Below are positions 1,859 to 16,160 of a stretch of DNA of 44,940 nt, piece by piece. The stretch is from Brenneria salicis ATCC 15712 = DSM 30166 (GTDB lineage Bacteria; Pseudomonadota; Gammaproteobacteria; Enterobacterales; Enterobacteriaceae): positions 1 to 44,940 of the forward strand of contig NZ_QNRY01000033.1 of the NCBI RefSeq assembly GCF_003315515.1, read 5' to 3'. A model generated the notes under the pieces. That model was not told the origin of the DNA. It did no database searches and saw only the letters and a program-made list of their open reading frames with translations. How positions within the stretch are numbered: position 1 is the first letter of the stretch; each line of letters opens with the position of its first letter. The translations under genes and the position numbers were made by a program.

Positions 1859-2042
1859 ATGATTTTCCTCGCTAAAAATTCAATAGAGAGAGTTGTATTA
1901 CTTTTTAGTTATTTGCGGGATGTAAATATTAATTTCAGATATATATTGTAATGTGTTTTTTTTAAAAAATCTAAAAGTATTGATTCTTTTGTAAAAGTTA
2001 ATGTTTTTATTGATTTTTTAATTTAATTAAAATAGATTTCGT

Positions 2043-2061
2043 TAATAACTTATAGTTATTA
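2043..2061. promoter_or_regulatory. 19-base perfect palindrome, operator candidate
   Basis: The arms are TAATAACT and AGTTATTA around a three-base centre TAT. The site lies about 185 bases upstream of the ThDP-enzyme start. A dimeric repressor or activator site is possible, but chance palindromes are common in DNA this AT-rich. Confidence 0.3.
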
Positions 2062-2095
2062 TTTTTGTGATCATAATATTCGTTATCAATTTAAT

Positions 2096-2110
2096 CATCG
2101 ATTATCGATG
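2096..2110. promoter_or_regulatory. 15-base perfect palindrome CATCGAT-T-ATCGATG, operator candidate
   Basis: Seven-base arms surround a single T. Unlike the neighbouring palindrome this one contains G and C positions, so it is less likely by chance. It lies about 240 bases upstream of the ThDP-enzyme gene in otherwise noncoding DNA. The binding protein is unknown. Confidence 0.35.
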
Positions 2111-2501
2111 CTCTATGTCATAATTCTTTCTGATATTTTACTTTGTTTTTGAAATTCAATTTCAAATTCGCCAGTTCTCAGATGGAGTATTTTAAGGTAA
2201 TGCATTGTTTCTAATGGCCAATAATATTATTTTTTTGCAGCCTTGTTATTAATTGTTTTATGTAAATATATATGTTGAAGCGAATTTCCATTGCATGCAT
2301 CGCGTTGCTCATATTTAAATTTCCCCATATATTAAAATAACCTTCATATCTTGTGTATACCATGTCGTTAGGAAAGAGTTTATAACTAAAAAACCGCCCA
2401 CCGAAAATATTCCACCTTGCCAACTTCCCCAAGCTAAATAACGCTATGGATATAATACAGCCCGTCAACCATGCCGAAGTAGTACATAAAGAAAACGGTG
2501 G

Positions 2502-3809
2502 TCAGAACCCCACTTCAATGTTCAGCGAAAGATAAGCGTCAGGCTCACTTGCCTCGCTGTGCTGGCTATCGTTTTGCCGAAAGCGCGATGAGGGCATAAA
2601 CCAGCCGAAAATGGACTCCACTTCAATATTGTCGTCAGGTCGACAGCCAAACATTAACTCTACCGCTGAGCCAAGATGTTTGGTGGAAAGGCGATCGTAT
2701 CGGGGGCTGAGTTCTGTGGAATCCTCGCCCAATGATGCCAGTTGATCTTGCCGGTAATCGTGATAGACCAAATCCAATGACGCTTCCGGCGCGAGGTTGA
2801 TGCCAATGCCGCCCGTCAGGATATGGATGTTCGTCAGTTCAGGATTAAAGGTGCTGCCATAGATTTTATATTTAATGATCCCCCCGGAACGGGCTTCATT
2901 GGAATGCAATCCGGTTTGGCGATAGCCTTTATCAATGTTGTCGGCCTGATTACCATCGCCGCTGCCCCAGGCGTAGCCGAGCGTGATCCGCGGGCGTAGC
3001 GGCGTGCTATCAAAAATATAAGTGCCGCCCGCATCAACGGCATAGCCGCGTAAACGTTGGCTGGCTTCTCGCCCCTGCATGACGCCAAATTCAAACCAAT
3101 GCTGTAACCCTTGTTTGGGGAACGCATGTGAGCGGATACCGGTATTGATTTGGCGATTGTTATCGGTGGTGATGTCGCGTTGTATCACGCTATAAAGGCC
3201 AAGACGCCAGTTATCGTCCAGATAATAGCGCGCCAGAATACCGCCGGTGTTTACCGGATCCTGTTTTGTTTTGCCGTCAAAAAGATCTTTCTGCCAATGA
3301 TTAACGCGACCGGCGACGGCATCCACTTCAATATTTCCTTTGCTGAAGCGTGCATGAACGCCATCGAGATTTTCGTCAAACAGCCATTCGCGTTCATCGC
3401 GCATTAACCACCGGCCCAGACGTAACTCGGTATTCGGTATGATCTCATCGCTGATCTTCACATAAGCCTGATTCAGATTCAGGCTGGTGGTTTGCTGCTG
3501 CGCCTCGCGGGATTCGCGCTCAATTTTTTTTATCCATTCCAGTTCCGCCAGGCCGGAAAGCGGCGCATCTTTCATCATTTGTAAATGTAGTCGCAAAGCC
3601 GGTTCCAGTTCCGTGGCATTATCCTTTTTCTCCCCTTGCCTTAATTTTTTGTTGCGTTGGTGTTTTCCTTCCAGGATCAGACGAGGTTTTATGGTGACCC
3701 ACTGTTTCCGTTCTTCCCGCTCTGCTTGGGTGGCCGCGCCAGACATAGCGGCCTGCGCGGTCAGTGGCAGCAGTGATAAAAAAGGAAAAATAAGACAATG
3801 ACGTATCAT
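2502..3809 (-). CDS. AlgE-like outer-membrane beta-barrel (alginate export family), likely polysaccharide porin
   Basis: The 435-residue product begins with a signal peptide (MIRHCLIFPF, cleavage probably after AQA near residue 20) and ends in VGF with a terminal phenylalanine, the usual outer-membrane barrel end. The middle and C-terminal part carries elements I associate with the AlgE/alginate_export family: LRLGRWLMRDEREW, YAWGSGDGNQ, FRQ/YRQTGLHSNEARSGG and the phrase NPELTNIHILTGGIG. In Pseudomonas, AlgE is an 18-strand barrel through which alginate leaves the cell. No alginate synthase, epimerase or lyase gene is present here, so the cargo is probably another glycan. The start codon overlaps the stop of the upstream kinase gene in an ATGA, making this the last gene of the six-gene operon. 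A role as the outer-membrane exit is inferred from the family and the operon. Confidence 0.75.
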   Translation of the reverse strand: MIRHCLIFPFLSLLPLTAQAAMSGAATQAEREERKQWVTIKPRLILEGKHQRNKKLRQGEKKDNATELEPALRLHLQMMKDAPLSGLAELEWIKKIERESREAQQQTTSLNLNQAYVKISDEIIPNTELRLGRWLMRDEREWLFDENLDGVHARFSKGNIEVDAVAGRVNHWQKDLFDGKTKQDPVNTGGILARYYLDDNWRLGLYSVIQRDITTDNNRQINTGIRSHAFPKQGLQHWFEFGVMQGREASQRLRGYAVDAGGTYIFDSTPLRPRITLGYAWGSGDGNQADNIDKGYRQTGLHSNEARSGGIIKYKIYGSTFNPELTNIHILTGGIGINLAPEASLDLVYHDYRQDQLASLGEDSTELSPRYDRLSTKHLGSAVELMFGCRPDDNIEVESIFGWFMPSSRFRQNDSQHSEASEPDAYLSLNIEVGF

Positions 3810-6109
3810 AAATAATGCGATGATTGGCCTGATGAAGTACGAAGACGCGCTTCGCAGATATGCAACAATGCCTGCGTGGTCGGTGTTCGCTGGCTGAATT
3901 GAGTGCTTAGAAAGATGTGGCGGGCGAGAGATAGCGTGGTCAGCGCCTGAATTTCCGGCGCGGAGACGGTCGGCGAGTGGGCCAGAAAAGCCTGAATAAA
4001 AGCCGTTTCATGGACGCTCAATACCTGAATGTCGCCGAATTGACGCAATGCGAGTTCCTGAATATGCGCCAGGTAATTTCCCGCATCGATAGCAGGGCAG
4101 CCGATGCAGCATAGATCAAAATCGAGCAATACCACGTTATGCGGCGGCTTCGCATAAATCATGACCTGATCGGGATAAAAATCACGATGGATTGCGGTTG
4201 ATGCCGAAGGGACGAGGGACGTCGCCAGCCGCTCGCACCCGTCCAGCACCTGCTTGATGCGCACCGCCCATTGAGGTCGCAAGATTGCCGCCTGGGTCAG
4301 GCATTGTCGCAGTACCGTCGCCTCATCGGATAAGGTCCACTGTTTATCCGATGATAATTCACGCAACGCCTGACTTCGGTGTAATGCCGCCAACGACGCG
4401 CCTACTTTCTCTCCCAATACCGGTAAATCATGGCTGGCCGGGCGCAGCAGTTCGGTGAGTAGCTGCGCGCTGACTTTACGCTGTAGCCATAAGTGTTCCG
4501 CTGCCATGATCGCCAACGGCTCCGGCACGGACACCGATGATGATGTGTCAAACCCGCTCTGCCATAAGGCGCGCTGTTTTGCAAAAGAGGCGTGATCCGC
4601 GCCTTTCGCCCGATATTTCCCCAAGACCGTCATCGGCGCGGTTTGCCCCGGCAACGCCCACTGATAGGCAATTAGCGCCCGCCGGCCGGGTTTGTGCCGG
4701 ATAACCTCCGCGTTCAGCCATTGCGCGTCTTCAGGCAGCGACAGGGCCTGCCGCATAGGATTCGCGACATAGCTGGGATCCGTTAACGTCAGCAGCCGGT
4801 CGGCGGGGCGACGAATAGCCGATGTTTGCGCCTGTGCGATATAATGTGCCGCACGGCTTAACAGGGCTGCAATCTGTTCAGGCCAGCGGGGTGAGCGTTT
4901 GCGAAATGGTTCGGTCGCCAGACAGAGCAGCCTGGCTGCGACATACCAGGTTAAATGCGCTAAGGATTGTTGAATTTCAGGCGTTGCTTGCGCGGCGTAG
5001 CCCGATAAAAAGCAAGAAACGGCTTTATCCGCCTGAGCTTGTGTCACCGTTTGCTCAATCACCTGTAACTCAAGACGGGCCTGTAAAGTGGCGAGATCGA
5101 GCAGCGGCGAACCGCAGGCGGCATGATCCCAGTCTAAAAAGCACAGGCTCCGATCTGCGGCGTGAACGACCTGATCGAGCGAAAAATCGCCATGAATCAA
5201 TGTCGTCGTGGATTCACATTGCGGCAATGCCTGAGCGATCCGTTGTGCTAACTGACGAAAAGGTGTTGCCTGCGCCGGAGAAATAAATGACAAGGTGTTC
5301 AGGACATTCTGCAAGGCCTGTATTTCATCCGTTATCGTGCGCCGGGCCTGCGGCGTTAATGCGGATTGATGTATTTTCGCCAGCGCCTCTCCCGTTGGGC
5401 CAAGTGCGTTCGGCTGCCATTGCGGGTGCTGCTCCGGGCAGAGGATGTCGCCCGCCTGCCACTGGGTAAGCAGCAATCGTTTTCCGGCATCATGGCCCAG
5501 TATGCGGGTATGCCCCATTGATGCGCTCAGCGTTGCGCCAGCCAGCATGCCGTCAAAAGCGCTGGGGTGACAGCAGCGTAATACCGCATAGTGTCCTTCC
5601 GGCGTGTCCAGCGCCGCGATAAAACGTCGCTCAGGTTTGTAGCGTAAAAGCCGCCAGGTGATCGCGGATGTTTGCGCGGGCGGTAACAGGCCGGACAACA
5701 TATTGGTTGCCGATGATTGATAAAGTGGCCTGAGGTGGCTGATTACGGGATCATTCAGCGGGTGAAACAGTATCAGAGCGAACGCGGCGAGCGCGGTGGG
5801 CGCAAAGGGATCTTCCGTCTTCACCAGCTTTTGATAGCGCCGCCGCCGCCAGGTTTGCATAAAACGTTCCGTTGTCAGCGCATTGGCATAATAATGACAA
5901 CACTCTCCCGCGGCGGAGACAAGCTCCAGCCCGGCCACGCAACTGGTTCGCGGTTTGTAACGTAAATAGGTAACGCTCAGGGCGCGCGTGTCGGCAAAAC
6001 GTGGCAGACGGCGTAGCGTTCCCAACAGCGTTTCCGTGTCCAACAGCAATCTCAGACCGGGAAGCGCCGTATCGCTCTGCGTTATCGTGATGTCGGCATC
6101 CAGTAACAT
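3806..6109 (-). CDS. Tandem phosphotransferase (APH/choline-kinase fold) protein of a polysaccharide operon
   Basis: The 767-residue cytoplasmic protein (from the ATG at 6109) contains two kinase C-lobes of the aminoglycoside phosphotransferase type. The first has HGDFSLDQ at about 306 and LDWD at about 325; the second has HRDFYPDQ at about 641 and LDFD at about 662. In this fold the HxD aspartate is the catalytic base and the later DxD binds magnesium; the usual N of HGDxxxxN is Q in both. An N-lobe phrase of the type RYKPxR occurs three times (about 49, 155 and 470). A lysine in the expected ATP-binding strand is clear only in the last copy (VLGKYR), so the first domain may be degenerate. 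The start at 6109 forms TAATG with the ABC gene stop and has AGGA seven bases upstream; an ATG at 6157 would add 16 residues. The substrate is unknown: a lipid, a sugar or the end of a glycan chain. Confidence 0.65.
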   Translation of the reverse strand: MLLDADITITQSDTALPGLRLLLDTETLLGTLRRLPRFADTRALSVTYLRYKPRTSCVAGLELVSAAGECCHYYANALTTERFMQTWRRRRYQKLVKTEDPFAPTALAAFALILFHPLNDPVISHLRPLYQSSATNMLSGLLPPAQTSAITWRLLRYKPERRFIAALDTPEGHYAVLRCCHPSAFDGMLAGATLSASMGHTRILGHDAGKRLLLTQWQAGDILCPEQHPQWQPNALGPTGEALAKIHQSALTPQARRTITDEIQALQNVLNTLSFISPAQATPFRQLAQRIAQALPQCESTTTLIHGDFSLDQVVHAADRSLCFLDWDHAACGSPLLDLATLQARLELQVIEQTVTQAQADKAVSCFLSGYAAQATPEIQQSLAHLTWYVAARLLCLATEPFRKRSPRWPEQIAALLSRAAHYIAQAQTSAIRRPADRLLTLTDPSYVANPMRQALSLPEDAQWLNAEVIRHKPGRRALIAYQWALPGQTAPMTVLGKYRAKGADHASFAKQRALWQSGFDTSSSVSVPEPLAIMAAEHLWLQRKVSAQLLTELLRPASHDLPVLGEKVGASLAALHRSQALRELSSDKQWTLSDEATVLRQCLTQAAILRPQWAVRIKQVLDGCERLATSLVPSASTAIHRDFYPDQVMIYAKPPHNVVLLDFDLCCIGCPAIDAGNYLAHIQELALRQFGDIQVLSVHETAFIQAFLAHSPTVSAPEIQALTTLSLARHIFLSTQFSQRTPTTQALLHICEARLRTSSGQSSHYL

Positions 6110-7917
6110 TACGCCATCCTTAATGATGATGTGCGGCCCATGCCTTGCAGATGCCATAATTCCGCATAGCGTCCGCGGCGGGCGAGTAATGCGTCATGGC
6201 TGCCTTGTTCAAGAACGCAGCCGTCCTCAACAAAGATGATTTTGTCCGTCAATGCCGCGAACGCGAGGTTATGGGTGATCAACAGGCTGATGCGATCCCG
6301 CATCAGTCGCACCAGCGCTTCAATCACCGCCTGTTCATTCTCACTGTCCAACCCGGTGCTGGGTTCGTCCAGAACCAGAATTGGGCTATTGCGGATCGCT
6401 GCGCGGGCAATGGAAAGACGTTTCTGCTGCCCCCCCGATAATGATTGGCCGCGTTCGCTTAAAATGGTGTCGTAACCCTGGGGCAGCGCGGTAATAAACT
6501 CATGGACGTTCGCCAGTTTCGCCGCGGCGATAATTTGCGCCTCAGTCACTTCGCCTGACGCGGCCAGCGCAATATTTTCACGAATAGAGATGCCGAACAG
6601 CAGGCTGTCCTGCGGTACAAAACCAATCTGCCGGCGCAGGCTCTCCAGCGTGTAATCCCGAATATTTCGTCCATTAATCATGATGCGCCCGTCATGAGGG
6701 TCATACAGCCGTAATAGCAGACGCGCAATGGTCGATTTCCCTACCCCGGAGACGCCGGTAATGGCGACGGATTCGCCCGCCAGTAATGAGAAAGTAATAT
6801 GATCCAGTACCTGGTACTGCTGTTCGCCTTGTCCGTAGTGAAATCCCACCTGTTCAAAACGAATCTCATCGATCATGTTTTTCAGCGCAATCGCGTCGGG
6901 ACGATTGCTGATATCGGGTTGCTGTTGAAAAAGGTCGACAATACGTTCCCCGGCGGCCAGCGCTTTGGATAAGCGGCCCGTATATTTTGCGTATTCCCGT
7001 ATCGGCCGGAATGAATTCTTTAAATAAGAGAGGAAAATCACCAGTTCACCGACCGACATTTTGGCGTTCAGTACCGCCAGCGCGCCTTGCCACAACACCA
7101 GTGCGGCGGCGAACGCGATAATCAGATCCACGCTGCGTTCCAGACCGGCGGTTAAACGTTTGGAACGCACGTTTTGTTGCAGGCTGCTGGCGTCGTCGCG
7201 TTGGAGGCGTCGGATCGTTTCCGCTTCCAGAGAGAGCGCCTGTACGGTGCCGATAGCGCCCATGAATTCGGTGACCTTGGCCGCAAGAATACCCTCGCAC
7301 TGACGTTGTCTGCGGCTGGTGTCATGGATTTTCTGGCCGGTGCGCCGGGTATGCCAGATGAGCCACGGCATCGGCAACATCGCGCACAGCGTCAGTTGCC
7401 AGTTGAGGTACAGCATGATGCCCAGCATTCCGCTCAGGATCAGGATATTCACCAGCATGGGCATCAGCGCGGTAATGGTGGTTTCACGCAGCATACTGAT
7501 ATCACTGGTTAAACGCATGGCGAGATCGCCCGTTTTCACCTTGTGATGAAAGGTCAGCGATAGACGCTGTAAATGTGCGAAAAGGTCACTGCGTACCGCG
7601 CTAAGTACGCGGCTTCCCGCCAGCGCCAACCCGGTTGTGCTGAGATAACTCATGGCGGCTTGCAGGGCGGCAATCAGGATCACACTGACAACGCTCATCA
7701 GTAACAGCGTTGATGTATCCCAGGAATCGAACCAGCGAGAACGGCTTTTGTCGGTGGATAAAATATGATCGATGACGAACGCCAATGGCCACGGCTCCAG
7801 CAAACGCATACCGGTTGACAACAGCATGGCCGCTAATGCGCCGCTGATGAGCGGATAATGAACCCGGATATAGGGCCAGAATTGACGCGAGACGGCGCGC
7901 CAGGCGCGCTGTTTCAT
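6109..7917 (-). CDS. ABC exporter with fused membrane and ATPase domains (MsbA-like)
   Basis: The 602-residue protein is a half-transporter. Residues about 20-320 form a six-helix exporter membrane domain, with clear hydrophobic segments near 22-45, 72-95, 150-175 and 265-285. Residues 350-590 form the nucleotide-binding domain, with Walker A GVSGVGKST (388-396), Q-loop PQDS (435-438), signature LSGGQ (493-497), Walker B ILVLDE (513-518) and H-loop THN (548-550). All catalytic motifs are intact, so it should act as a homodimer pumping a lipid-linked or amphipathic substrate across the inner membrane. The start at 7917 overlaps the previous gene's stop as ATGA. A longer reading from 8070 would lie inside that gene in another frame and is rejected. 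The fused form differs from the separate Wzm/Wzt pair of O-antigen export and has no carbohydrate-binding extension. The cargo is inferred to be the product of the three neighbouring glycosyltransferases. Confidence 0.8.
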   Translation of the reverse strand: MKQRAWRAVSRQFWPYIRVHYPLISGALAAMLLSTGMRLLEPWPLAFVIDHILSTDKSRSRWFDSWDTSTLLLMSVVSVILIAALQAAMSYLSTTGLALAGSRVLSAVRSDLFAHLQRLSLTFHHKVKTGDLAMRLTSDISMLRETTITALMPMLVNILILSGMLGIMLYLNWQLTLCAMLPMPWLIWHTRRTGQKIHDTSRRQRQCEGILAAKVTEFMGAIGTVQALSLEAETIRRLQRDDASSLQQNVRSKRLTAGLERSVDLIIAFAAALVLWQGALAVLNAKMSVGELVIFLSYLKNSFRPIREYAKYTGRLSKALAAGERIVDLFQQQPDISNRPDAIALKNMIDEIRFEQVGFHYGQGEQQYQVLDHITFSLLAGESVAITGVSGVGKSTIARLLLRLYDPHDGRIMINGRNIRDYTLESLRRQIGFVPQDSLLFGISIRENIALAASGEVTEAQIIAAAKLANVHEFITALPQGYDTILSERGQSLSGGQQKRLSIARAAIRNSPILVLDEPSTGLDSENEQAVIEALVRLMRDRISLLITHNLAFAALTDKIIFVEDGCVLEQGSHDALLARRGRYAELWHLQGMGRTSSLRMA

Positions 7918-9098
7918 GTTTGTCTCTCCGGTAAGACCAGATCGGCAAGGCGTAAAATTTGTTGTACAACCGCATCCCAACTCTGATTCTGTATGATGGA
8001 TTGCCGCCCATTGGCACCTAGCTGACAACGCCAGCCGTAGTCGGCGACCAGGGTTTCCAGCGCCTGGCATAGCGCGCGAGGATTATCCGGCGCAACCAAC
8101 AGACCGGTTTCCCCGGCAATCACAATCTGCTCCAGATGCCCGACCTGCGTGGTGATGACCGGTAATCCCGCCGCCATATATTCATAAATTTTGAGCGGAG
8201 AGAAATAGAAATCAGGCAGCGCGGGGTAGGGGGCGACGGCGATATCCATTTCCGCTAACCGGGCCGGAATATCCGCATGGGGCAATGCGCCGGTGAAATG
8301 AACCCTGACAGACAGCCCCAGCCGTTCAACCCTGTCGGACAGAGACCCATATTCCAGGCCGTCGCCGACGATCAACAGGCGCACCGGATTTCCCCGATGA
8401 TGTAACAGTGCAAACGCGTCAATCAGCGTATCGACGCCATGCCAGGGTTTTAACGTCCCTAAAAAACCGATCACGGTGTCACGTTGTGAGTGATGTGTCT
8501 GGCGCTCCCGCCGGATGTTCATCGCCTGGCCGAAGCGCTGGGGATCAACGCCATTGGCGATGACATGAACTTTCTGCTGGGTTGACGGAAATTGCATTAA
8601 ATAGGTTTTTATGCCGGGCGAAACCGCCACGATGCGATCAGCGTTGGTTAATACCGAGTGTAGAATGCGCAACGCCTGCGCCTCCAGCGGTAATGTCCGG
8701 TAGCGTTTTTGCTCGTCAATCAACGGCGCGTTGACTTCCAGTATTCCTTTGCATCCCGTCTGTCTGGCATAAGCCATCCCCGCGTCGCTCCACAGTGCGT
8801 AACGTTCATACACCGCATCGAAAGGTGGATAACTCGCCAAAGCCTGAAGCAGCGCGTCGTTCGCCGCCAGCGCCGCCTGAGCGCGTAGCTGGGCGGTGTC
8901 ATCGGGCAACGCGGGCAAGCCGTGAAGAGGGATCGCCGCCAGATCCGCCGGCGGCTCCCCGCCGATGCGTTGTGCGAACAGGGTAATTTCCGCGCCTGCT
9001 TTCAGCAGACTGCGTAGTACTTCCTGGATGTGTATGGAGGCGCCTTTACAACCAAAAACAGGGATGCCCGGATCAGTACAGATATACGCGATTCGCAT
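7914..9098 (-). CDS. GT4-family glycosyltransferase
   Basis: This 394-residue protein has the GT-B fold pattern of family 4 retaining glycosyltransferases. The N-terminal Rossmann half begins MRIAYICTDPGIPVFGCKGA with the glycine-rich acceptor loop. The inter-domain phrase VHVIANGVDPQRF lies at about 177-189, and GFLGTLKPWHG starts the nucleotide-sugar half at 211. PLKIYEYMAAGLPVI at about 301-315 corresponds to the EX7E region that holds the donor. No membrane helix is seen, so it probably works at the inner face of the membrane. It sits between another GT4 gene (24-base gap) and the ABC exporter (ATGA overlap). Donor and acceptor sugars cannot be predicted. Confidence 0.8.
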   Translation of the reverse strand: MRIAYICTDPGIPVFGCKGASIHIQEVLRSLLKAGAEITLFAQRIGGEPPADLAAIPLHGLPALPDDTAQLRAQAALAANDALLQALASYPPFDAVYERYALWSDAGMAYARQTGCKGILEVNAPLIDEQKRYRTLPLEAQALRILHSVLTNADRIVAVSPGIKTYLMQFPSTQQKVHVIANGVDPQRFGQAMNIRRERQTHHSQRDTVIGFLGTLKPWHGVDTLIDAFALLHHRGNPVRLLIVGDGLEYGSLSDRVERLGLSVRVHFTGALPHADIPARLAEMDIAVAPYPALPDFYFSPLKIYEYMAAGLPVITTQVGHLEQIVIAGETGLLVAPDNPRALCQALETLVADYGWRCQLGANGRQSIIQNQSWDAVVQQILRLADLVLPERQT

Positions 9099-9122
9099 AT
9101 GGCGATTCCTTTTGAGTCGCTA

Positions 9123-10358
9123 TCAGTGAGCGTGTTTTACGCTGGCATGGAAAATGTCACGTAGCTGGCTGGCATTGCGGTTGATATCGTATTCAGCGCT
9201 GATCAGCGCCCGTGCGTTATGCGACAAACTGATGCGCTGCTCGTCATTTGCGAGCAGACTGGCGATCGCATCCGCTAATGCCTGTGGATCATGAGGCGGA
9301 ATACACAATCCGGTTTTTTGGTTTATCACCACTTCAGGAATACCGGCAACGGTGGTTGAAATCACCGGCGTACCCAGCGCCATCGCTTCCAGTAAAACGG
9401 TAGGCAGACCATCGCGGTCGCCATCATCGCTGATCACGCTTGGAACGACCAACATCGCGGCCTGCTGCATCTCGGCAATGACTTCCGGCTGAGGTTTCGC
9501 GCCGGCCAGCGTCATATGATCATGCAGCTTTAAGGTGTCGATCTGCTGTTGCAGCGGGGCAAGCAAGTCGCCGTTGCCTATCAGGGTACAGTGAAAGTCC
9601 AGGCCGCGTTGTTTCAACAACGCCAACGCTTTAATCAGCACGTCGAACCCTTTTTTCCTGACTAATCGGCCTACCGCCAAAATTCTCCTGGTGTTCGCTA
9701 CGGGAGGCGAATACGGGAATTGTTGCAGATCCACGCCGTTGTACAAACGCACCAGCCGATCGGCGCTGGCGCCATATTTTTCGCGTAAATAAGCGACGTT
9801 ATAATCCGATACGGTAATGGCGCAAGCCGCATCGCGCAGCTTGATGTCCAGGTCGGTTGCCTCGTCATAGTGGTAGTAAATATCTTTGGCATGGGCGGTG
9901 AATGAATATGTCACGCCGCTGAATATCGCGGCTAAACGCGCAACCGTGGTGGCGAGCGTGCCGAAATGCGCATGCAGGTGTTGGATGCCGCGGGCGCGCA
10001 CCGCCAACGCAAGTTTGATCGCTTGTGCGAACGAATGAGGAGATCCCCATTGCACCTCAATTAGCCGCTTGTCAAACTCAGGCAGTTGTTCGCGCGCGGT
10101 TTGCAGTAATTGCCAAAAGATTTCAGGATCGTACTGTCTGTCCTTATAACGTGTGACGGGGGCTTTTACGCGGGCAATACCGTCCTGAAAGTGGGGTTCA
10201 CTCACCGGGCCCAAAGCAAAAATATCTACTTTCATCCCGGCGCGCTCATGCGCCAGGATCTCATTTACGACAAACGTTTCTGAAAATCGCGGGTAACGTT
10301 TCAATACGTAGCCGACATAGAGGGGTTGATTGGTTGAATGCATGTTACTGGCCATCAT
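9123..10358 (-). CDS. GT4-family glycosyltransferase (WcaL/AmsK-like type)
   Basis: This 411-residue GT-B enzyme has the N-terminal phrase LKRYPRFSETFVVNEI typical of a GT4 subgroup that includes exopolysaccharide transferases such as WcaL and AmsK (recalled similarity). Further landmarks are HAHFG (129-133), FTAHAKDIY (about 153-161), LYNGVDLQQF (205-214), AVGRLVRKKGFDVLI (about 228-242) and GLPTVLLEAMALGTPVIS (317-334), the EX7E donor region. The start follows the previous gene's TAA almost directly; a GGAAG sequence just upstream could serve either the ATG at 10358 or the one three bases later. Donor and acceptor are unknown. Position implies it adds a sugar to the same product as its neighbours. 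Confidence 0.8.
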   Translation of the reverse strand: MMASNMHSTNQPLYVGYVLKRYPRFSETFVVNEILAHERAGMKVDIFALGPVSEPHFQDGIARVKAPVTRYKDRQYDPEIFWQLLQTAREQLPEFDKRLIEVQWGSPHSFAQAIKLALAVRARGIQHLHAHFGTLATTVARLAAIFSGVTYSFTAHAKDIYYHYDEATDLDIKLRDAACAITVSDYNVAYLREKYGASADRLVRLYNGVDLQQFPYSPPVANTRRILAVGRLVRKKGFDVLIKALALLKQRGLDFHCTLIGNGDLLAPLQQQIDTLKLHDHMTLAGAKPQPEVIAEMQQAAMLVVPSVISDDGDRDGLPTVLLEAMALGTPVISTTVAGIPEVVINQKTGLCIPPHDPQALADAIASLLANDEQRISLSHNARALISAEYDINRNASQLRDIFHASVKHAH

Positions 10359-10359
10359 A

Positions 10360-11547
10360 TTAAGCTTCCATTTTGGTGCGGAAAACGTCGGCGACCTGCA
10401 TGGCCACCTGTTCTAATCCCTTAAAATTTAGTATGTCACGCGGGTTGGCGTAGTTCTGAGGTTGGGCCAGCCAGCGCTGAATAACCGCAGGGCTTAATGC
10501 TTCAGGCGCAAGACACGTCACCAGGTTGCGTTCAGCCAGTTTGGTTGCCCGTATCCACTGCTCCTGACGGGGGGCGACACGAGGAATGATCAGCGCCGTT
10601 TTCTCAAGCGCCAGTATTTCCATGACGGTGTTGTATCCGCCCATTGATACAATGCGTTCCGCCCGGCGCATCAATTCCAGCGGTTCCGGCACAAATGCCG
10701 CCATTGTCATGTCATCGCGTTGGTTAACCCATTGACGCAGTTGCTCTCGTTCTTCGGGCGGCATCATGGAGCCGGTAATCAGCATCCCGGTGCGTCCGGC
10801 GGGTAACCGGGCGTGGACGAATGCCTCCGCCAGCGCATAGCCGTCTTGCCCCCCTCCCAGCATGCACAACGCGTAGGGCGCGTCGATCGGGCAGGCGGCG
10901 GAAGTCGGGGTTATTCCCTGAAGCCGTTTGGCGGCATCCAGATAACCCATAAAGGTGACTTTCCGCGTCAGTTCCGCATCAAACCCATATTGCCGGGTGA
11001 GATCGTAAAAATCGGCATCGCCGTAAACCCACACCTGGGTGAAATAGTTGCGAATGGCGTCCATATTTCCCAGCTTTGCCCATTGGCGTTGCACGGCATC
11101 GGGATGATCGATGATATCCCGCAGGCCAAGCACCATTTCTGTCCCTTTGGCCGCCAGCACCGGCAAAATGGTATCGAGTTCCGACATCGCGCCGCGCGGC
11201 ACATTATCCACCACCACCATATCGGGTTCGAATGCGCTCATGGCCGCATGAATTATGTCGGAACGCAGGCAGACCAGACGCTTGATATCTTTACCCAACG
11301 CCCTGGGCCGATAGTTTCCGTCAGGGGTTTTCAGGTAAGTCGGCAGCGTCACGATATCCGTTCCTTTTGGCAACGGAAATTGTGCGGCTTCACGTACGCC
11401 GGTAATTAACAGGATCTCGGCAGCGGGCAATAGGGTTAATACTGCCTGAGTCAGTAACATGTTTCTTCTTACGTGACCCAATCCCATTGTGTCATGCGAA
11501 TAAAAAACCACCCTCGGATTACGATGTCGTTTTGCTTTCTGAGGCAT
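10360..11547 (-). CDS. MurG-like (GT28-related) predicted glycosyltransferase, first gene of the polysaccharide operon
   Basis: The 395-residue protein has the N-terminal phrase YSHDTMGLGHVRRN (about 16-29), the glycine-rich acceptor loop of MurG-like enzymes. It also has VVVDNVPRGAMSELD near 112 and a C-terminal GGYNTVMEILALEKTALIIP typical of UDP-sugar binding in this clan. It matches what I recall as the COG4671 predicted-glycosyltransferase group, whose members often lack assigned substrates. MurG relatives commonly transfer a sugar to a lipid carrier, so this enzyme might begin the chain (inference). Ribosome-site complementarity before the ATG is weak. The gene is preceded by a roughly 460-base AT-rich leader if the promoter at 12015-12043 is used. 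Confidence 0.7.
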   Translation of the reverse strand: MPQKAKRHRNPRVVFYSHDTMGLGHVRRNMLLTQAVLTLLPAAEILLITGVREAAQFPLPKGTDIVTLPTYLKTPDGNYRPRALGKDIKRLVCLRSDIIHAAMSAFEPDMVVVDNVPRGAMSELDTILPVLAAKGTEMVLGLRDIIDHPDAVQRQWAKLGNMDAIRNYFTQVWVYGDADFYDLTRQYGFDAELTRKVTFMGYLDAAKRLQGITPTSAACPIDAPYALCMLGGGQDGYALAEAFVHARLPAGRTGMLITGSMMPPEEREQLRQWVNQRDDMTMAAFVPEPLELMRRAERIVSMGGYNTVMEILALEKTALIIPRVAPRQEQWIRATKLAERNLVTCLAPEALSPAVIQRWLAQPQNYANPRDILNFKGLEQVAMQVADVFRTKMEA

Positions 11548-11732
11548 AATATAGAATCCATATGGTGTTGAAGGTCATTATTCTTGAAAGCCTGAATACC
11601 CTCGTTTTCAAATCGCAGGCATATCAAGGGCTGAATGACAGGTATATTTTTCCGCGCTTCGTTTACGGTTACGTCATTTATTTTATTCAGTGTCAGGGAA
11701 TTTATTTTTTAATACTTCTCTGGTGCTTAAAA

Positions 11733-11755
11733 GCTATCGGATGTATCCGATAAGC
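11733..11755 (-). promoter_or_regulatory. Hairpin in the operon leader, possible attenuator
   Basis: TATCGGA and TCCGATA pair perfectly around TGTA, and GC pairs extend the stem past one bulged A. Read on the minus strand the hairpin is followed by GCTTTTAAGC, only four T's, so it would be a weak terminator at best. It could equally be an operator. It lies about 190 bases upstream of the first operon gene. Confidence 0.35.
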
Positions 11756-12014
11756 GCTCTTTTCCACACGCTATGAGTGGTTGTTAAATAGATTAAATAA
11801 CCGGTTAGAATTTAAATCCATATTTGTCATAAAACAGAGGCGCTGTTCATGTTTTTACTAATTCATTCCATTTAGTAATTAAATTTAATTATAGCTTTGT
11901 AATTATTTTTTCAGAATTAATTGATATTAATATTTTCTATTTTCTGATTGGTTCGCCATGTTTATTCAACAGTAATACTTATATTTGGTAAGGGCTATTG
12001 GATGCGTCGCTATA

Positions 12015-12043
12015 ATTAGAAGTCTATTTTTGGTAGGGGTCAA
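12015..12043 (-). promoter_or_regulatory. Candidate sigma-70 promoter for the polysaccharide operon
   Basis: On the minus strand TTGACC (12043-12038, five of six consensus bases) is followed after exactly 17 bases by TCTAAT (12020-12015, five of six). Transcription would start near 12008 and give a leader of roughly 460 bases before the MurG-like gene. It also lies just past the terminator of the convoy coming from the aminotransferase, consistent with a fresh start. Confidence 0.5.
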
Positions 12044-12075
12044 AAAATAATATTATTTTCCAATGTATTAGGATG

Positions 12076-12102
12076 AAATAAAAAGAGCCGATCATATCGG
12101 CC
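12076..12102 (-). terminator. Intrinsic terminator after the aminotransferase gene
   Basis: On the minus strand GGGCCGAT and ATCGGCTC form a GC-rich hairpin around ATG, followed by TTTTTATTTC. It lies about 36 bases past the aminotransferase stop. Confidence 0.75.
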
Positions 12103-12137
12103 CGTTGAGACAGGCGGTTACGCCGTATGTGCCTGAC

Positions 12138-13547
12138 TTAAATAAAGCCGTCGGCCCTGAGGGAGTCCAGCGTGACGCTGAATGCCTCATCCAGAATACC
12201 GACAACTTCGTCGATCACCTTTTGCGTCCAGATCAATGGCGGGGAAATAACAATAAGATGACCAATCGGACGGATAATCAAACCGCGTTTCTGGCATGAA
12301 TCGGCGATGCGATAACCTGCTTTTGCCGCCGCGGGGAACAGGGCTTTGGTTTGGCGATTGGCGACGCTCTCGATTCCGACCATGAAGTGGCTGCCGCGGA
12401 TATCGCCGACGATAGGATGGCGGGCAAGACGCCGCGTTAACGCTTCAATCAGGTACGGGCCAATTTCACGGACATGCTCACAAATCTTCTCGCGCTCGAT
12501 AATCCCGATGTTGGCAAGCGCCGCCGCGCAACTGACCGGATGCCCTGAATAGGTATAACCGATACTCAACACCCCGCCTCTGGCTTGCGGCTGACTTATG
12601 ACGGCATAGATCTTGTCGGAAATCAGAGTTGCCCCCAGAGGCGAGTAGCCTGATGTGAGGCCTTTGGCAATGTTGATGATGTCGGGTTTGACGCCGAACA
12701 CGGCTTCCGATGCAAAGAAGTGTCCGAGACGGCCAAAAGCGGTGACGACCTCGTCCGAGATATAAAGCATGCCGTTCGCGTGGCAAACGTCCAGCATTCT
12801 TTTGTGGTAGCCGTCGGGAGCCACCAGAACGCCGCCGGCGCCCATGATCGGTTCGGCAATAAACGCCGCTATATTCTCCGCGCCAAGACGCTCGATCGTG
12901 GTCTGAAATTCCTGAACAAGGTGGTCGCAGTATTGCGCATCGCTCATTCCCTCTGGTTTACGATAGCAATTCGCTTCGCTGATATACACCACCAGGTCTT
13001 CCACGGTATCGAATCCCAGATTAATCCCTTCGGTTGCCGTCAGACTGGCGGACAGATACGTCGTGCCATGATAGGCGCTTTTGCGGGAAATGATTTTCTT
13101 TTTAGCCGGTTGCCCAAGCTGATTGAAATAGTAATGCACCAGCCGGATAGTGGTGTCATTGGCCGTCGAACCGCCGCAACTATAAAAAACATGATTGAGA
13201 TCGCCGGGCGCCAGTTCAGCGAGTTTGGCTGCAAGCCGGGTCGCCGGAATATTGGTGAGATTATTGAACGATGAGTAGTACGCCATTTCTGTGGCTTGTT
13301 TGCTCATGGCCTCGCCGATTTCGCTGCGGCCATGACCGACATTGACGCACCATAAGCCACCTATGCCGTCGATAAAGCGATTGCCTTTATCGTCCTCGAC
13401 AAAGGTGCCTTCACTTCTGGTCATTACATCGCTGCCTTTTTCTTTGAACTGACTGAAATCGGTAAACGGATGGATAAAATGCGCTTTGTCCAGCATGTGT
13501 AAGTTATTCGGTTCGGTGATGGGTAAGTTCGGTGACGACAGCGACAT
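12138..13547 (-). CDS. Class III PLP-dependent (omega) aminotransferase
   Basis: The 469-residue protein has fold-type I class III landmarks: GGLWCVNVGHG near 63-73, YSCGGSTANDTTIRL (about 122-136) for cofactor phosphate binding, and AYHGTTYLSASLT (158-170). DEVVTAFGR at 265-273 carries the aspartate that pairs with the pyridine nitrogen, and K295 in NIAKGLTSG is the Schiff-base lysine. It resembles the SpuC/beta-alanine-pyruvate group, which moves an amino group from polyamines or omega-amino acids to pyruvate or another keto acid. The substrate is not determined. AAGGAG about eight bases before the ATG supports the start. It is transcribed in the same direction as a LuxR-type regulator and an APC permease, so the three probably form an uptake-and-deamination pathway for an amine or amino acid (inference). 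Two operator-like repeats lie about 140-175 bases upstream. Confidence 0.8.
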   Translation of the reverse strand: MSLSSPNLPITEPNNLHMLDKAHFIHPFTDFSQFKEKGSDVMTRSEGTFVEDDKGNRFIDGIGGLWCVNVGHGRSEIGEAMSKQATEMAYYSSFNNLTNIPATRLAAKLAELAPGDLNHVFYSCGGSTANDTTIRLVHYYFNQLGQPAKKKIISRKSAYHGTTYLSASLTATEGINLGFDTVEDLVVYISEANCYRKPEGMSDAQYCDHLVQEFQTTIERLGAENIAAFIAEPIMGAGGVLVAPDGYHKRMLDVCHANGMLYISDEVVTAFGRLGHFFASEAVFGVKPDIINIAKGLTSGYSPLGATLISDKIYAVISQPQARGGVLSIGYTYSGHPVSCAAALANIGIIEREKICEHVREIGPYLIEALTRRLARHPIVGDIRGSHFMVGIESVANRQTKALFPAAAKAGYRIADSCQKRGLIIRPIGHLIVISPPLIWTQKVIDEVVGILDEAFSVTLDSLRADGFI

Positions 13548-13685
13548 TGGATTTCTCCTTTAATTAGCCGGATAGCTCTCTGAACCGAGTCTACCGAAAG
13601 GCGCGGGAGAGGGCGTCCCTCTATGGTGGTATGGCTTGTCCGGCGTGATAACGGGATGAAAAATGCCGACAAATAACGTGAAAAC

Positions 13686-13723
13686 GCCCCCTTTCAAGGC
13701 ATTTTTGCCCCATTTAAAGGCAT
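13686..13723. promoter_or_regulatory. Pair of 17-base direct repeats, candidate binding sites for the adjacent LuxR-type regulator
   Basis: GCCCCCTTTCAAGGCAT (13686-13702) and GCCCCATTTAAAGGCAT (13707-13723) agree at 15 of 17 positions and start 21 bases apart, two turns of the helix. Each has partial dyad symmetry (GCC then GGC about ten bases on). They lie between the regulator's stop and the aminotransferase start, where an activator of the aminotransferase would bind. Confidence 0.5.
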
Positions 13724-13731
13724 AACCCGAT

Positions 13732-13750
13732 AACTTTGATTTTCAAAGTT
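13732..13750. promoter_or_regulatory. Perfect palindrome next to the direct-repeat pair
   Basis: AACTTTGA and TCAAAGTT flank TTT. There is no T-run on either side, so a terminator is unlikely. It may be a third regulatory site in the promoter region of the aminotransferase. Confidence 0.3.
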
Positions 13751-13817
13751 CAGCCGGAAACCGGTTGGCCGAACACTTATCAGCAACCCGCATGCCAATA
13801 AAGCGGGTTATGCGCAT

Positions 13818-14615
13818 TCAGGGTTTTCGATTATCGGGCGGTGGCGTGACGAACAAACTGCACAGTTGCAGTTCCGAATTGATGCCGAGTTTGGAATAGA
13901 TATTCCTGCGGTGCACCTTCACCGTTTGATAGCTGATATCAAGATGACGCGCCAAGGCTTTTGTCCCTTTGCCGGAGATCATCAGATTGACGATCTCACG
14001 CTCTCTCCCCGTCAGAATGCTGTTGATTTTTTTATGGTTATCGTCGGGTTCGTAGTTGATGACCGCGGTGCCGTCACAATGTGAGCGGTAATACCGGGTG
14101 AGGATGCTTTTTACCACGCTGTATATATTTTCCAGCGCGGCCAGTTCCTTGCTGGTTGCCGTCCGCTTGCGCCAATCCATCGATAGCACGATGGCATCGC
14201 CGTTTAGCATGGGAAACAACACGTCAATTTCATCCTTCAGATTGAGATGACGGTAATATTTCCTGTAATAGCTTGAGCCGGCCAGAGAGCAGGTCTGATG
14301 ATTGATTTGGACGATTTGCGCGCCATCGCGCAATTTTTCCAGCAGCGGATCTTCGAGACAGGCAAAAGGAAAATATTTGTCGAGATAAACCGCCTGCTGG
14401 CTGGCGGGAATATTGTGCGCCAGCACAAGCGGGAAATCACAATTCGCCCGGTATAACTTGATAATATAGGTTTCGTGATCAATGACGCCGTTAAGCATCC
14501 CGGAAAGTCGCTGCGGCAGGCTGGCGTCATCCGCATTTTCAAAGAGATCGGCAATATTTTCATGCCAGCGCAGGATATCGGGATGCATCAAAATAGTTGC
14601 CAGTTCCAAGCTCAC
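13818..14615 (-). CDS. LuxR/GerE-family transcriptional regulator
   Basis: The 265-residue protein has a C-terminal GerE helix-turn-helix at about 205-255. LTGREREIVNLMISGKGTKA is followed by LDISYQTVKVHRRNIYSKLG, the recognition helix and last helix. The N-terminal two-thirds has no receiver-domain aspartate pattern and no clear acyl-homoserine-lactone signature; it may be a small-molecule sensor domain. The start is a GTG at 14615; an ATG at 14588 is an alternative. The gene lies between an APC permease and a class III aminotransferase, all on the minus strand, so it most likely senses the transported amine or amino acid and controls these two genes (inference). Paired repeats immediately downstream are candidate targets. 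Confidence 0.75.
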   Translation of the reverse strand: MSLELATILMHPDILRWHENIADLFENADDASLPQRLSGMLNGVIDHETYIIKLYRANCDFPLVLAHNIPASQQAVYLDKYFPFACLEDPLLEKLRDGAQIVQINHQTCSLAGSSYYRKYYRHLNLKDEIDVLFPMLNGDAIVLSMDWRKRTATSKELAALENIYSVVKSILTRYYRSHCDGTAVINYEPDDNHKKINSILTGREREIVNLMISGKGTKALARHLDISYQTVKVHRRNIYSKLGINSELQLCSLFVTPPPDNRKP

Positions 14616-14713
14616 TCTCCCATCGATAATTTGCCTCTGATGCCGGAGTCAAGCAAATTTCATACCTATTTCCGACCACCGATGGATATTAGGGAAAGCG
14701 GCACGAACCGCAA

Positions 14714-14751
14714 GCGCGACCTGCTGTGTGTGAAACACACGCCTGTCGCGC
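14714..14751 (-). promoter_or_regulatory. Two-tier inverted repeat between permease and regulator genes
   Basis: GCGCGAC and GTCGCGC form the outer stem. GTGTGT and ACACAC form an inner stem with loop GAA, separated from the outer by short internal loops. It begins about 12 bases past the permease stop on the minus strand but has no following T-run. It may stabilise the permease transcript's 3' end or lower read-through into the regulator gene. Confidence 0.4.
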
Positions 14752-14762
14752 TGGCTACTGGA

Positions 14763-16160
14763 TTAAAAATGCTCGGAGAAGGCCACGGTGGGCGCTTTAC
14801 GACGAAAGCCGCGGGTGAGCCAGAGCAAATAGAGAAAAGCGGCGCCGCACCAGGACAGACCAATAATCAGGGTATGGGCCGACAGACTGGTCCACAGCCA
14901 CAGCGTCAGCCCCGTACCGACGGCGGGCAGCAGACCGTAACAGAGTAAATCCCGCGGGCGGCGGCGACCGTCTTGATACAGGTAGCTGCGGATCACCGCC
15001 ATGTTGGTTGCCGAGAACGCCACCAGTGCGCCAAAGCTGATCATGGAAGCCAGCGTCGTCAGGTCGGTGACGGTAGCTAACAGGGAGATCAGCGACACTA
15101 CCAGAATAGCCGTCACGGGCGTTTTGAAACGCGGCGACAGTTGGCCGAATATGCGCTCAGGCAGGATACCGTCGCGGCCCATGCAATAGATGATGCGGGA
15201 AACCGAGGTTTGCGAGGCCAGCGCTGAACCGGCGGCGCCGGCAACATAGGCTGCGGTGAACAGATTTGCCAGCAACGCGCCGCCGGCTTTGTACATGACT
15301 TCGTTGGCGGCGACCTCGGCATCCTTGAATACGCTGCCGGGGAAAACCCACTGGCTGACAGCCGCGAGCAAGGTGAACAGCAGTCCGGCGGCGATGGTGG
15401 TGATCACAATGGCGCGCGGAATATCCCGTTTGGGATTAGGCGTCTCTTCCGCCAGCGTCGAGACTGCATCAAAACCCAAAAACGACAGGCACAGGATGGC
15501 CGCGCCAGCCATGAGCGGCGGGAAGCCTGGCTGGGTGCCGTCGCCCAGAAACGGCGACATCACATTCAGTGACGGGACGCCGCTAAGATAGTTGACCGAC
15601 ATTGCGATGAATACCAGAACGAAGACAATCTGCGCCCCGACGATGATGTTGCTCAGACCCGCCACCGAACCGATGCCTATGGTATTGAACACGCTGACCA
15701 GCACGATAGCCGCCACCACGAAAACCCAGGCTGGCACTACCGTGAAGGCGATGTTCAGGAAAAGGCCGATAAGCAGATAGTTGATCATTGGCAGGAACAG
15801 ATAATCCAACAGCAGAGCCCACCCGGTCAGAAAACCCGCGCTGGGGCCGAATGTCAGGCTGGTATAGGAGTAGGTCGATCCGGCCACCGGATATTTCCGC
15901 ACCATGAAACCATACGAAACGTCGGTAAAGAGCATGGCGAACAGTGTCATCAGGTAAGCGCTGGCCGTGCGGCCGCCGGTAATTTCGGTGACCACGCCAT
16001 AGGTCGTGAACATGGTCAGCGGCACCATGTACACCAACCCGAAAAAGATCAACGCGGGGAGTCCGAGCACCCGGTGCAGACGGGTATCCTGTGTGTGCCG
16101 CACTGCGCCTTGCGCAGGCGGCGTGTTGATGGATGCGTCATTCTGATAATTCTTGCTCAT
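14763..16160 (-). CDS. APC-superfamily amine/amino-acid permease (PuuP-like)
   Basis: The 465-residue integral membrane protein has about twelve hydrophobic segments. The first, LGLPALIFFGLVYMVPLTMF at about 32-51, is the typical first APC helix. Other landmarks are YPVAGSTYSY near 85-94, a signature for this superfamily, and FLGFDAVSTLAEETPNPKRD, the family phrase around helix 6 and its following loop. The overall pattern resembles the putrescine importer PuuP and related permeases, but the substrate cannot be fixed from sequence. GAGGAG before the ATG supports the start at 16160. It heads a minus-strand set with the LuxR-type regulator and the aminotransferase, so its cargo is probably the aminotransferase's substrate (inference). 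It is divergent from ahpC and separated from it by a repeat array. Confidence 0.8.
   Translation of the reverse strand: MSKNYQNDASINTPPAQGAVRHTQDTRLHRVLGLPALIFFGLVYMVPLTMFTTYGVVTEITGGRTASAYLMTLFAMLFTDVSYGFMVRKYPVAGSTYSYTSLTFGPSAGFLTGWALLLDYLFLPMINYLLIGLFLNIAFTVVPAWVFVVAAIVLVSVFNTIGIGSVAGLSNIIVGAQIVFVLVFIAMSVNYLSGVPSLNVMSPFLGDGTQPGFPPLMAGAAILCLSFLGFDAVSTLAEETPNPKRDIPRAIVITTIAAGLLFTLLAAVSQWVFPGSVFKDAEVAANEVMYKAGGALLANLFTAAYVAGAAGSALASQTSVSRIIYCMGRDGILPERIFGQLSPRFKTPVTAILVVSLISLLATVTDLTTLASMISFGALVAFSATNMAVIRSYLYQDGRRRPRDLLCYGLLPAVGTGLTLWLWTSLSAHTLIIGLSWCGAAFLYLLWLTRGFRRKAPTVAFSEHF

Follow-up and report, generated by a model that had tools for sequence, protein, structure and literature searches.

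A candidate glycan-making and exporting cassette in Brenneria salicis with an optional AlgE-family barrel

The described systems closest to the locus considered here each share a part of it. Alginate export in Pseudomonas (Alg8-Alg44-AlgK-AlgX-AlgE) has the outer membrane barrel AlgE, to whose family the last gene of our locus belongs. The Wzm/Wzt pathway of Escherichia coli O9a has glycosyltransferases (GTs), an ATP-binding cassette (ABC) exporter and a kinase in one pathway. The kinase is the capping kinase WbdD, which the abstract of PMC3482155 describes as a methyltransferase, a eukaryotic-type kinase and a coiled coil. The PglK and MsbA flippases and the ChvA/NdvA glucan exporters share the fused ABC exporter superfamily. 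The locus itself lies in Brenneria salicis ATCC 15712 = DSM 30166 (GCF_003315515.1), on contig NZ_QNRY01000033.1, positions 1 to 44,940 of the forward strand. We call this whole stretch of 44,940 nucleotides the window. Six intact, co-directional genes run on its minus strand from 11547 to 2502: GTa, GTb, GTc, ABC (the exporter), KIN (a tandem kinase) and an AlgE-family barrel. We argue that they are a self-contained cassette that makes and exports one envelope or secreted glycan. The product is deduced from the gene families, and we put the probability of this reading at roughly 0.55.

Consider alginate first. The barrel is shared, but the synthase, the PilZ protein, the AlgK scaffold and AlgX are not among the six genes, and neither Alg8/Alg44, AlgK nor AlgX was found among the 20 other window proteins scanned. 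The alginate system is rejected on these absences from the locus. A search of the whole genome with the ALGX family gave no match, and the control genomes gave none either, so this result does not speak for absence genome-wide. A Wzx/Wzy-dependent pathway is rejected as well, since flippase, polymerase and Wza/Wzc were not found among the six genes or the same 20 proteins. An original prediction, made by a model from the sequence alone, had reported the lack of all three sets and was right to do so. Wzm and Wzt are a separate permease and ATPase, whereas the cassette has a fused ABC_membrane-ABC_tran protein of the ABCB half-transporter type, so that pathway is rejected too. A WbdD-type capping kinase does not fit because KIN has two APH domains without a methyltransferase family, as against the methyltransferase in the abstract on WbdD. 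The comparison with WbdD had also been drawn before; it stands in that a kinase is present and fails on the fold. Since KIN is by its model a small-molecule kinase of the APH/choline-kinase fold, WbdD is only an analogy. Unlike PglK, MsbA and ChvA, the exporter is kept with its own GTs and kinase, and it scores below the cut-offs of those families. We found no publication on this set in the open-licence literature (titles and starts of abstracts), in line with the original failure to recognise a described system; the subscription literature may hold one. We rate the cassette as a variant of ABC-dependent glycan export, not previously described as far as we found.

The open reading frames (ORFs) were read from the sequence. 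GTa is the first gene (10360-11547, 395 residues) and is a GT28/MurG-like glycosyltransferase. It matches Pfam Glyco_tran_28_C at 30.7 bits, its closest structure by profile is MurG (1f0k, E 1.3e-4), and its motif YSHDxxGxGHxRR is present in 93/93 loci counted. TAA, one base and ATG (10362-10356) join it to GTb (9123-10358, 411 residues), a GT4 enzyme like EpsE and WcaL. GTb matches Glycos_transf_1 at 138.9 bits and the NCBIfam model EPS_EpsE at 195.4 bits, under its cut-off of 400. After a gap of 24 bases (9099-9122) comes GTc (7914-9098, 394 residues), also GT4. It matches Glyco_trans_1_4 at 111.5 bits, Glycos_transf_1 is found on both GT4 proteins, and the motif E-x7-E of GTc is kept in 89/89 loci counted. 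GTc overlaps ABC (6109-7917, 602 residues), an MsbA/ABCB-type half-exporter, by ATGA (7917-7914). ABC meets KIN (3806-6109) at TAATG (6111-6107), and KIN overlaps the barrel (2502-3809, 435 residues) by ATGA (3809-3806). A mechanical ORF list starts ABC at 8070 and KIN at 6157. We prefer 7917 for ABC because of the ATGA overlap with GTc, and 6109 for KIN because it fits several relatives; KIN then has 767 residues, as against 783 from 6157. The six same-strand genes and all of their junctions are thus as originally listed, and Pfam and profiles bear out the parts list of three GTs, ABC exporter, tandem kinase and AlgE-like barrel.

Co-transcription of the six genes is likely because of the gene overlaps. 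A scan of 1860-12140 for promoters and terminators gave no signal, since neither kind of site exceeded shuffled sequence (7 promoter-like sites found against 11.8 expected, 10 terminator-like against 12.8). We presume that the operon promoter sits in the intergenic region 5' of GTa (11548..12137), although none was identified there. RfaH/ops control was considered and rejected. An ops/JUMPstart-type element is absent from 11548..12137 even with one mismatch allowed, and neither the operon nor the gap that precedes it has an exact copy of the ops pattern. One-mismatch matches are scattered, with 14 in the window (four of them inside the operon) against 8.0 expected.

Evidence for a unit comes from other genomes. 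A scan with a GTa alignment gave at least 587 confirmed relatives, of which the best 80 were kept; these named loci are therefore biased to close relatives. Three contigs were each fetched under two labels (L033/L047, L035/L045 and L036/L042). All five core genes, GTa to KIN, lie on one strand in 65/80 named loci. Judged by ORF starts, the order is GTa-GTb-GTc-ABC-KIN in 63 of these 65, and in the other two (L086 and L107) the listed order differs through an over-extended ORF start. All six genes of the window are under purifying selection, with a ratio of nonsynonymous to synonymous change (dN/dS) of 0.12-0.28 against the genus-mates G003 and G005. Conservation beyond chance follows from the shared strand and these ratios, and the earlier reading of the genes as a single unit holds. 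Full cores are found in the Proteobacteria (Pasteurellaceae, Enterobacterales, Lautropia, Thauera and Rhodobacterales). Beyond them they occur in cyanobacteria, Gemmatimonadetes (Gemmatimonadota), a Chloroflexia bin (Chloroflexota) and an archaeon, Ca. Methanoperedens (L114). In 12 of the 15 incomplete loci the contig stops no more than about 1 kb beyond the last core gene that could be seen. L098 gave no GTb behind GTa, and its two kinase genes and OprB-type gene are upstream, in divergent orientation. The divergence of the five core proteins correlates at 0.78-0.89 across 76 loci, near-duplicates (L033, L036) and loci with a kinase score of 200 or less being dropped; shared ancestry is uncorrected here and we do not use this as proof.

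The set is patchy in narrower samples, whose counts for family, class and genus include the window's own genome. GTa is found in 10/246 genomes of the family (E <= 1e-20). A class sample has GTa in 17/369 genomes (E <= 1e-60) and the kinase in 8/369 (E <= 1e-30), all 8 within the 17; this kinase search was limited to scoring two candidates per genome. As a sample with less bias, six of the 8 two-marker genomes were fetched. Contig ends spare the locus in four of them, and these have the complete five-gene core, with AlgE behind it in 3/4 and with ABC and KIN swapped in two. Among the 9 genomes of the genus, six-gene sets are present in G000, G003 and G005. G001 has a five-gene set that is 44-64% identical, with a nucleotide-sugar dehydrogenase upstream and AlgE absent. 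G002 has a kinase match of 39 residues with a stop and nothing more, and the other four have no kinase match. The window genome has one kinase match. Of 12 stretches fetched, nine have all six genes (L035 is cut at a contig end), L028 has five genes without AlgE, L031 has a diverged set without AlgE, and L030 has none. In E. coli the set is present in 18/5426 complete genomes, always on plasmids. Two of these plasmids, L012 and L015, are typed as conjugative IncFIA/IncFIB, and there the cassette adjoins a plasmid copy of the formate dehydrogenase-N genes.

KIN matches Pfam APH in two stretches. Domain 1 (residues ~151-430, 4820..5659) has HGDFSLDQ...DWD and domain 2 (residues ~436-761, 3827..4804) has HRDFYPDQ...DFD, so that both carry the APH fold with the HxD and DxD catalytic motifs; their limits come from profiles and a predicted structure. 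An extra third segment like an N-lobe stands at the start of KIN (residues ~41-97, 5819..5989). In the structure model it has three strands plus helices, and its profile matches the N-lobe of domain 1 over 50 columns with a probability of 93.9%. Fold comparison of the model finds likeness to choline, homoserine, malto-, glucosamine and methylthioribose kinases; its coverage is chiefly of kinase 2, with some rows for kinase 1, and it hardly tests the first 120 residues. The likeness to maltokinase is seen by sequence too. WbdD is not among the 50 matches listed, which excludes nothing. The model thus makes KIN a small-molecule kinase of the APH/choline-kinase fold, its substrate assignment being a prediction. 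The two domains are fused in most proteobacterial loci and are two genes in E. coli plasmid L015, some cyanobacteria, Competibacteraceae, Chloroflexia and Methanoperedens. Many cyanobacteria have the C-terminal half alone, and domain 2 is the half retained where a single kinase is found.

The exporter is a fusion of ABC_membrane and ABC_tran by Pfam. Its NCBIfam scores are 375.9 bits for MsbA_lipidA, 217.9 for chvA and 150.2 for PglK. The cut-offs are 602, 585.4 and 1000, so MsbA, ChvA or PglK proper is rejected. A profile search of the PDB places ABCB4 and P-gp best, with MsbA lower. Walker A, LSGGQ and Walker B are intact in the window protein, and across the loci Walker A is kept in 86/88, a strict LSGGQ in 54/88 and LDEP in 83/88. 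By its motifs and matches we class it as an ABCB-type fused half-transporter with all three ATPase motifs. A quick tree of 83 ABC proteins is mostly sorted by phylum, with 6 label changes where the minimum possible is 5.

The outer membrane is the variable part. The window barrel matches Pfam Alginate_exp at 87.3 bits against a cut-off of 25.2 and its profile finds the solved AlgE with E 2.4e-27. It is the only PF13372 match in the genome. Read by eye, its start resembles a signal peptide and it ends in F. A paper on AlgE (PMC4118822) describes a ring of ten residues in AlgE that is thought to select alginate. We mapped the ring by hand on a sequence alignment in which six of the ten positions can be aligned and four cannot. 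In the window Asp162 and Asn164 are retained and Arg362 has become Lys, with Asn, Leu and Glu in place of Arg129, Arg152 and Arg353. The barrel would fit a pore of the AlgE kind with a cargo other than alginate. An AlgE gene is found in 17/80 named loci, after the core in 15 of them. In 11/80, all cyanobacterial, a gene for an OprB-type porin adjoins the kinase. Pfam gives an OprB match in 4/4 of those tested (L106, L112, L098 and L097) and the other seven are in the same BLAST cluster. NCBIfam names the L106 protein an iron uptake porin, and passage of a glycan does not have to be its role. What is conserved is a core of five genes, to which the AlgE barrel is an optional sixth that can be replaced. 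The co-occurrence of six families that had been put forward for checking therefore survives for the core and only in part for AlgE. It must be noted that in L113 (Gemmatimonadetes) the gene after the kinase (13748-15277) has a carboxypeptidase-regulatory-like match and SlipAM at the cut-off. Going by these matches, it is perhaps a third kind of exit.

Among the neighbours that recur with the core is a UDP-glucose dehydrogenase-like gene, seen near 9/80 named loci and also in L015 and L028. It lies directly after the kinase, with a gap of 15-41 bases, in 5/5 Pasteurellaceae loci. In E. coli plasmid L015, which has two separate kinase genes and AlgE, it lies 32 bases after AlgE, and in G001 it overlaps GTa from upstream. 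A dehydrogenase of this kind has joined the cassette in several separate lineages, which makes an acidic glycan probable and UDP-glucuronate, or a sugar derived from it, a likely donor. The scenario we favor would run as follows. In the cytoplasm GTa, GTb and GTc would draw on nucleotide sugars to extend an acceptor made elsewhere, and at least one of the sugars is probably a uronic acid or another product of UDP-glucuronate. There too, the growing glycan or a building block would be phosphorylated by one or two kinases of the APH fold. The ABCB-type exporter would carry the product across the inner membrane. In the window genome the barrel would then be a dedicated passage through the outer membrane, for which some cyanobacteria may use an OprB-type porin instead. 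The cassette is without a priming transferase, polymerase, co-polymerase or scaffold, so the product may be short or may start from a housekeeping acceptor. An archaeon carries the core and many loci have it with no pore gene nearby, which points to an essential task that is complete at the inner membrane. Starting from the observed families, gene order, conservation, co-occurrence and kinase fold, we infer a glycan that is acidic and that is phosphorylated and exported in that order. The original sequence of phosphorylated, flipped and released keeps the same standing, and that interpretation as a whole is partly supported.

Several observations weigh against this scenario. The arginines of the alginate-selective ring, as far as they can be aligned, are mostly lost from the barrel. 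AlgE or OprB is found in the fetched stretch of 28/80 loci and most show neither. The dehydrogenase is near only 9/80, and in 4 of these (Lautropia) it is about 3 kb off and on the other strand. It is not in the window, and the genome has one elsewhere. The dehydrogenases of L015, L028 and L038 match UDP-glucose 6-dehydrogenase best, at 568-577 bits against a cut-off of 757; they do exceed the cut-off for nucleoside diphosphate-sugar dehydrogenases in general. The GTb of the window lacks a plain E-x7-E, a motif present in 46/91 loci. Two Planctomycetales loci (L096 and L117) have no kinase after ABC though the sequence goes on, and the kinase is unmatched in 9/17 GTa-positive genomes of the class sample.

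One can imagine that the product is instead a membrane glycolipid. The GTs would glycosylate a lipid, the kinase would phosphorylate the head group, the exporter would be a floppase of the MsbA/PglK kind, and the barrel would be accessory or otherwise used. The exporter lends itself to this, as ABCB4 and P-gp lead its PDB matches, ahead of MsbA, and in NCBIfam the MsbA models rank among the best. GTa is closest to MurG, which acts on a lipid. Also, an archaeon has the core, and at many loci no pore gene is visible. However, the sixth slot, if filled, mostly holds AlgE or OprB. These families are known for soluble sugars or polymers, so a lipid-anchored product is hard to square with them. Nor is there a lipid-specific gene among the recurring neighbours identified (some clusters are unidentified). 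On balance we think a glycolipid unlikely. We hold it just as unlikely that the kinases only supply a precursor, making a sugar phosphate or other activated compound by salvage while the glycan itself is unmodified. That would explain why both domains look like kinases of free small molecules, but two kinase domains or genes are kept together in many lineages, and no nucleotidyltransferase is among the recurring neighbours identified.

The APH fold and the dedicated exporter would also suit a small glycosylated and phosphorylated secondary metabolite, for example a growth inhibitor, with a kinase that is self-protective like the aminoglycoside kinases. The patchy spread in the family (GTa) and in E. 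coli (plasmids only) agrees with this. Yet neither the core nor the identified recurring neighbours include a gene that would make an aglycone, and the sorting of most of the ABC tree by phylum suggests a long-kept function. A secondary metabolite is therefore improbable. Least plausible is an ordinary exopolysaccharide or lipopolysaccharide operon of known type, or a decaying remnant of one. The single genes do belong to common families, and the kinase fragment of G002 would fit decay. But the six frames of the window are open with the dN/dS values given above, Wzx/Wzy, Wzm/Wzt, Wza and a synthase are not among the six genes, and the same core is found across phyla.

The self-contained glycan cassette is still the reading we prefer. 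A bolder version of it is possible but doubtful. The cassette could be an ancient, unnamed glycan route beside Wzx/Wzy, Wzm/Wzt and the synthase systems, a portable five-gene engine with interchangeable exits in which phosphorylation by the kinase is a signal for export or chain length. Equally tentative is the idea that in bacteria and archaea this engine is self-sufficient at the inner membrane, its exits being AlgE in proteobacteria and OprB in cyanobacteria.

Relatives of GTa and GTb in the same order are also found outside the cassette, in Rhizobium etli, Sulfitobacter and Ruegeria (the R. etli GTa is 32% identical). These loci differ in having another third GT, and no kinase or AlgE match was found in the five stretches searched. 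The ABC protein of R. etli and Sulfitobacter is longer and a distant relative of the cassette ABC. Directly upstream of the GTa-GTb relative, Sulfitobacter has a nucleotide-sugar dehydrogenase; in two R. etli plasmids one lies at a distance of about 8 kb, and none is listed in the Ruegeria stretch. In R. etli CIAT 652 the two relatives are labelled redA/redB, a label we could not trace to a publication. In the R. etli plasmids L121 and L125 they lie between an annotated oligopeptide ABC importer and the long ABC exporter. Close to them are a gene for an adenylate cyclase and another annotated as cyclic-nucleotide-binding or as a regulator, which hints at control by cyclic AMP in these two plasmids.

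Neighbour genes were clustered by BLAST and part of the clusters identified. No further recurring polysaccharide gene family is among those identified. In 30/80 named loci the 3 kb upstream of GTa hold a histidine kinase gene, usually divergent and mostly with a response regulator; these include many Rhodobacterales, Lautropia and some cyanobacterial loci. Only that of L014 was checked by profile; it falls in the CztS, PhoQ, PmrB and QseC group and its regulator is PmrA/QseB-like. L082 is counted on a 1,892-residue ORF. Several large clusters overlie two-component genes on the opposite strand and look like shadow ORFs. In the window the operon is flanked (164-1858 and 12138-16160) by a thiamine pyrophosphate-dependent enzyme, a class III aminotransferase, a LuxR-type regulator and an amino-acid permease. 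The aminotransferase is matched in 2/9 genus genomes (G000 and G003). The larger ORFs scanned from 16467 to 43796 are presumably housekeeping genes, which from their Pfam families we take to be AhpC/F-like, queG, nnr, amiB, mutL, miaA, hflX, hflKC, purA, mpl, fbp, gshB, metK and speA-like. The content of guanine and cytosine per kb is 0.51-0.59 over 3001-11000 and 0.39-0.59 around it. This contrast is not telling, and we set aside any argument for a genomic island based on it.

Annotation now splits the cassette into pieces, which the records of the E. coli plasmids, for example, call 'glycosyltransferase', 'aminoglycoside phosphotransferase' and 'alginate export'. If our reading is true, enterobacteria, oral bacteria, marine roseobacters and cyanobacteria share one small set that makes a sugar for the surface or for secretion. 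Barrels of the AlgE type would gain a role outside alginate and some 'antibiotic kinase' annotations would become glycan kinases. At six genes, the system would also be small enough to be rebuilt in vitro.

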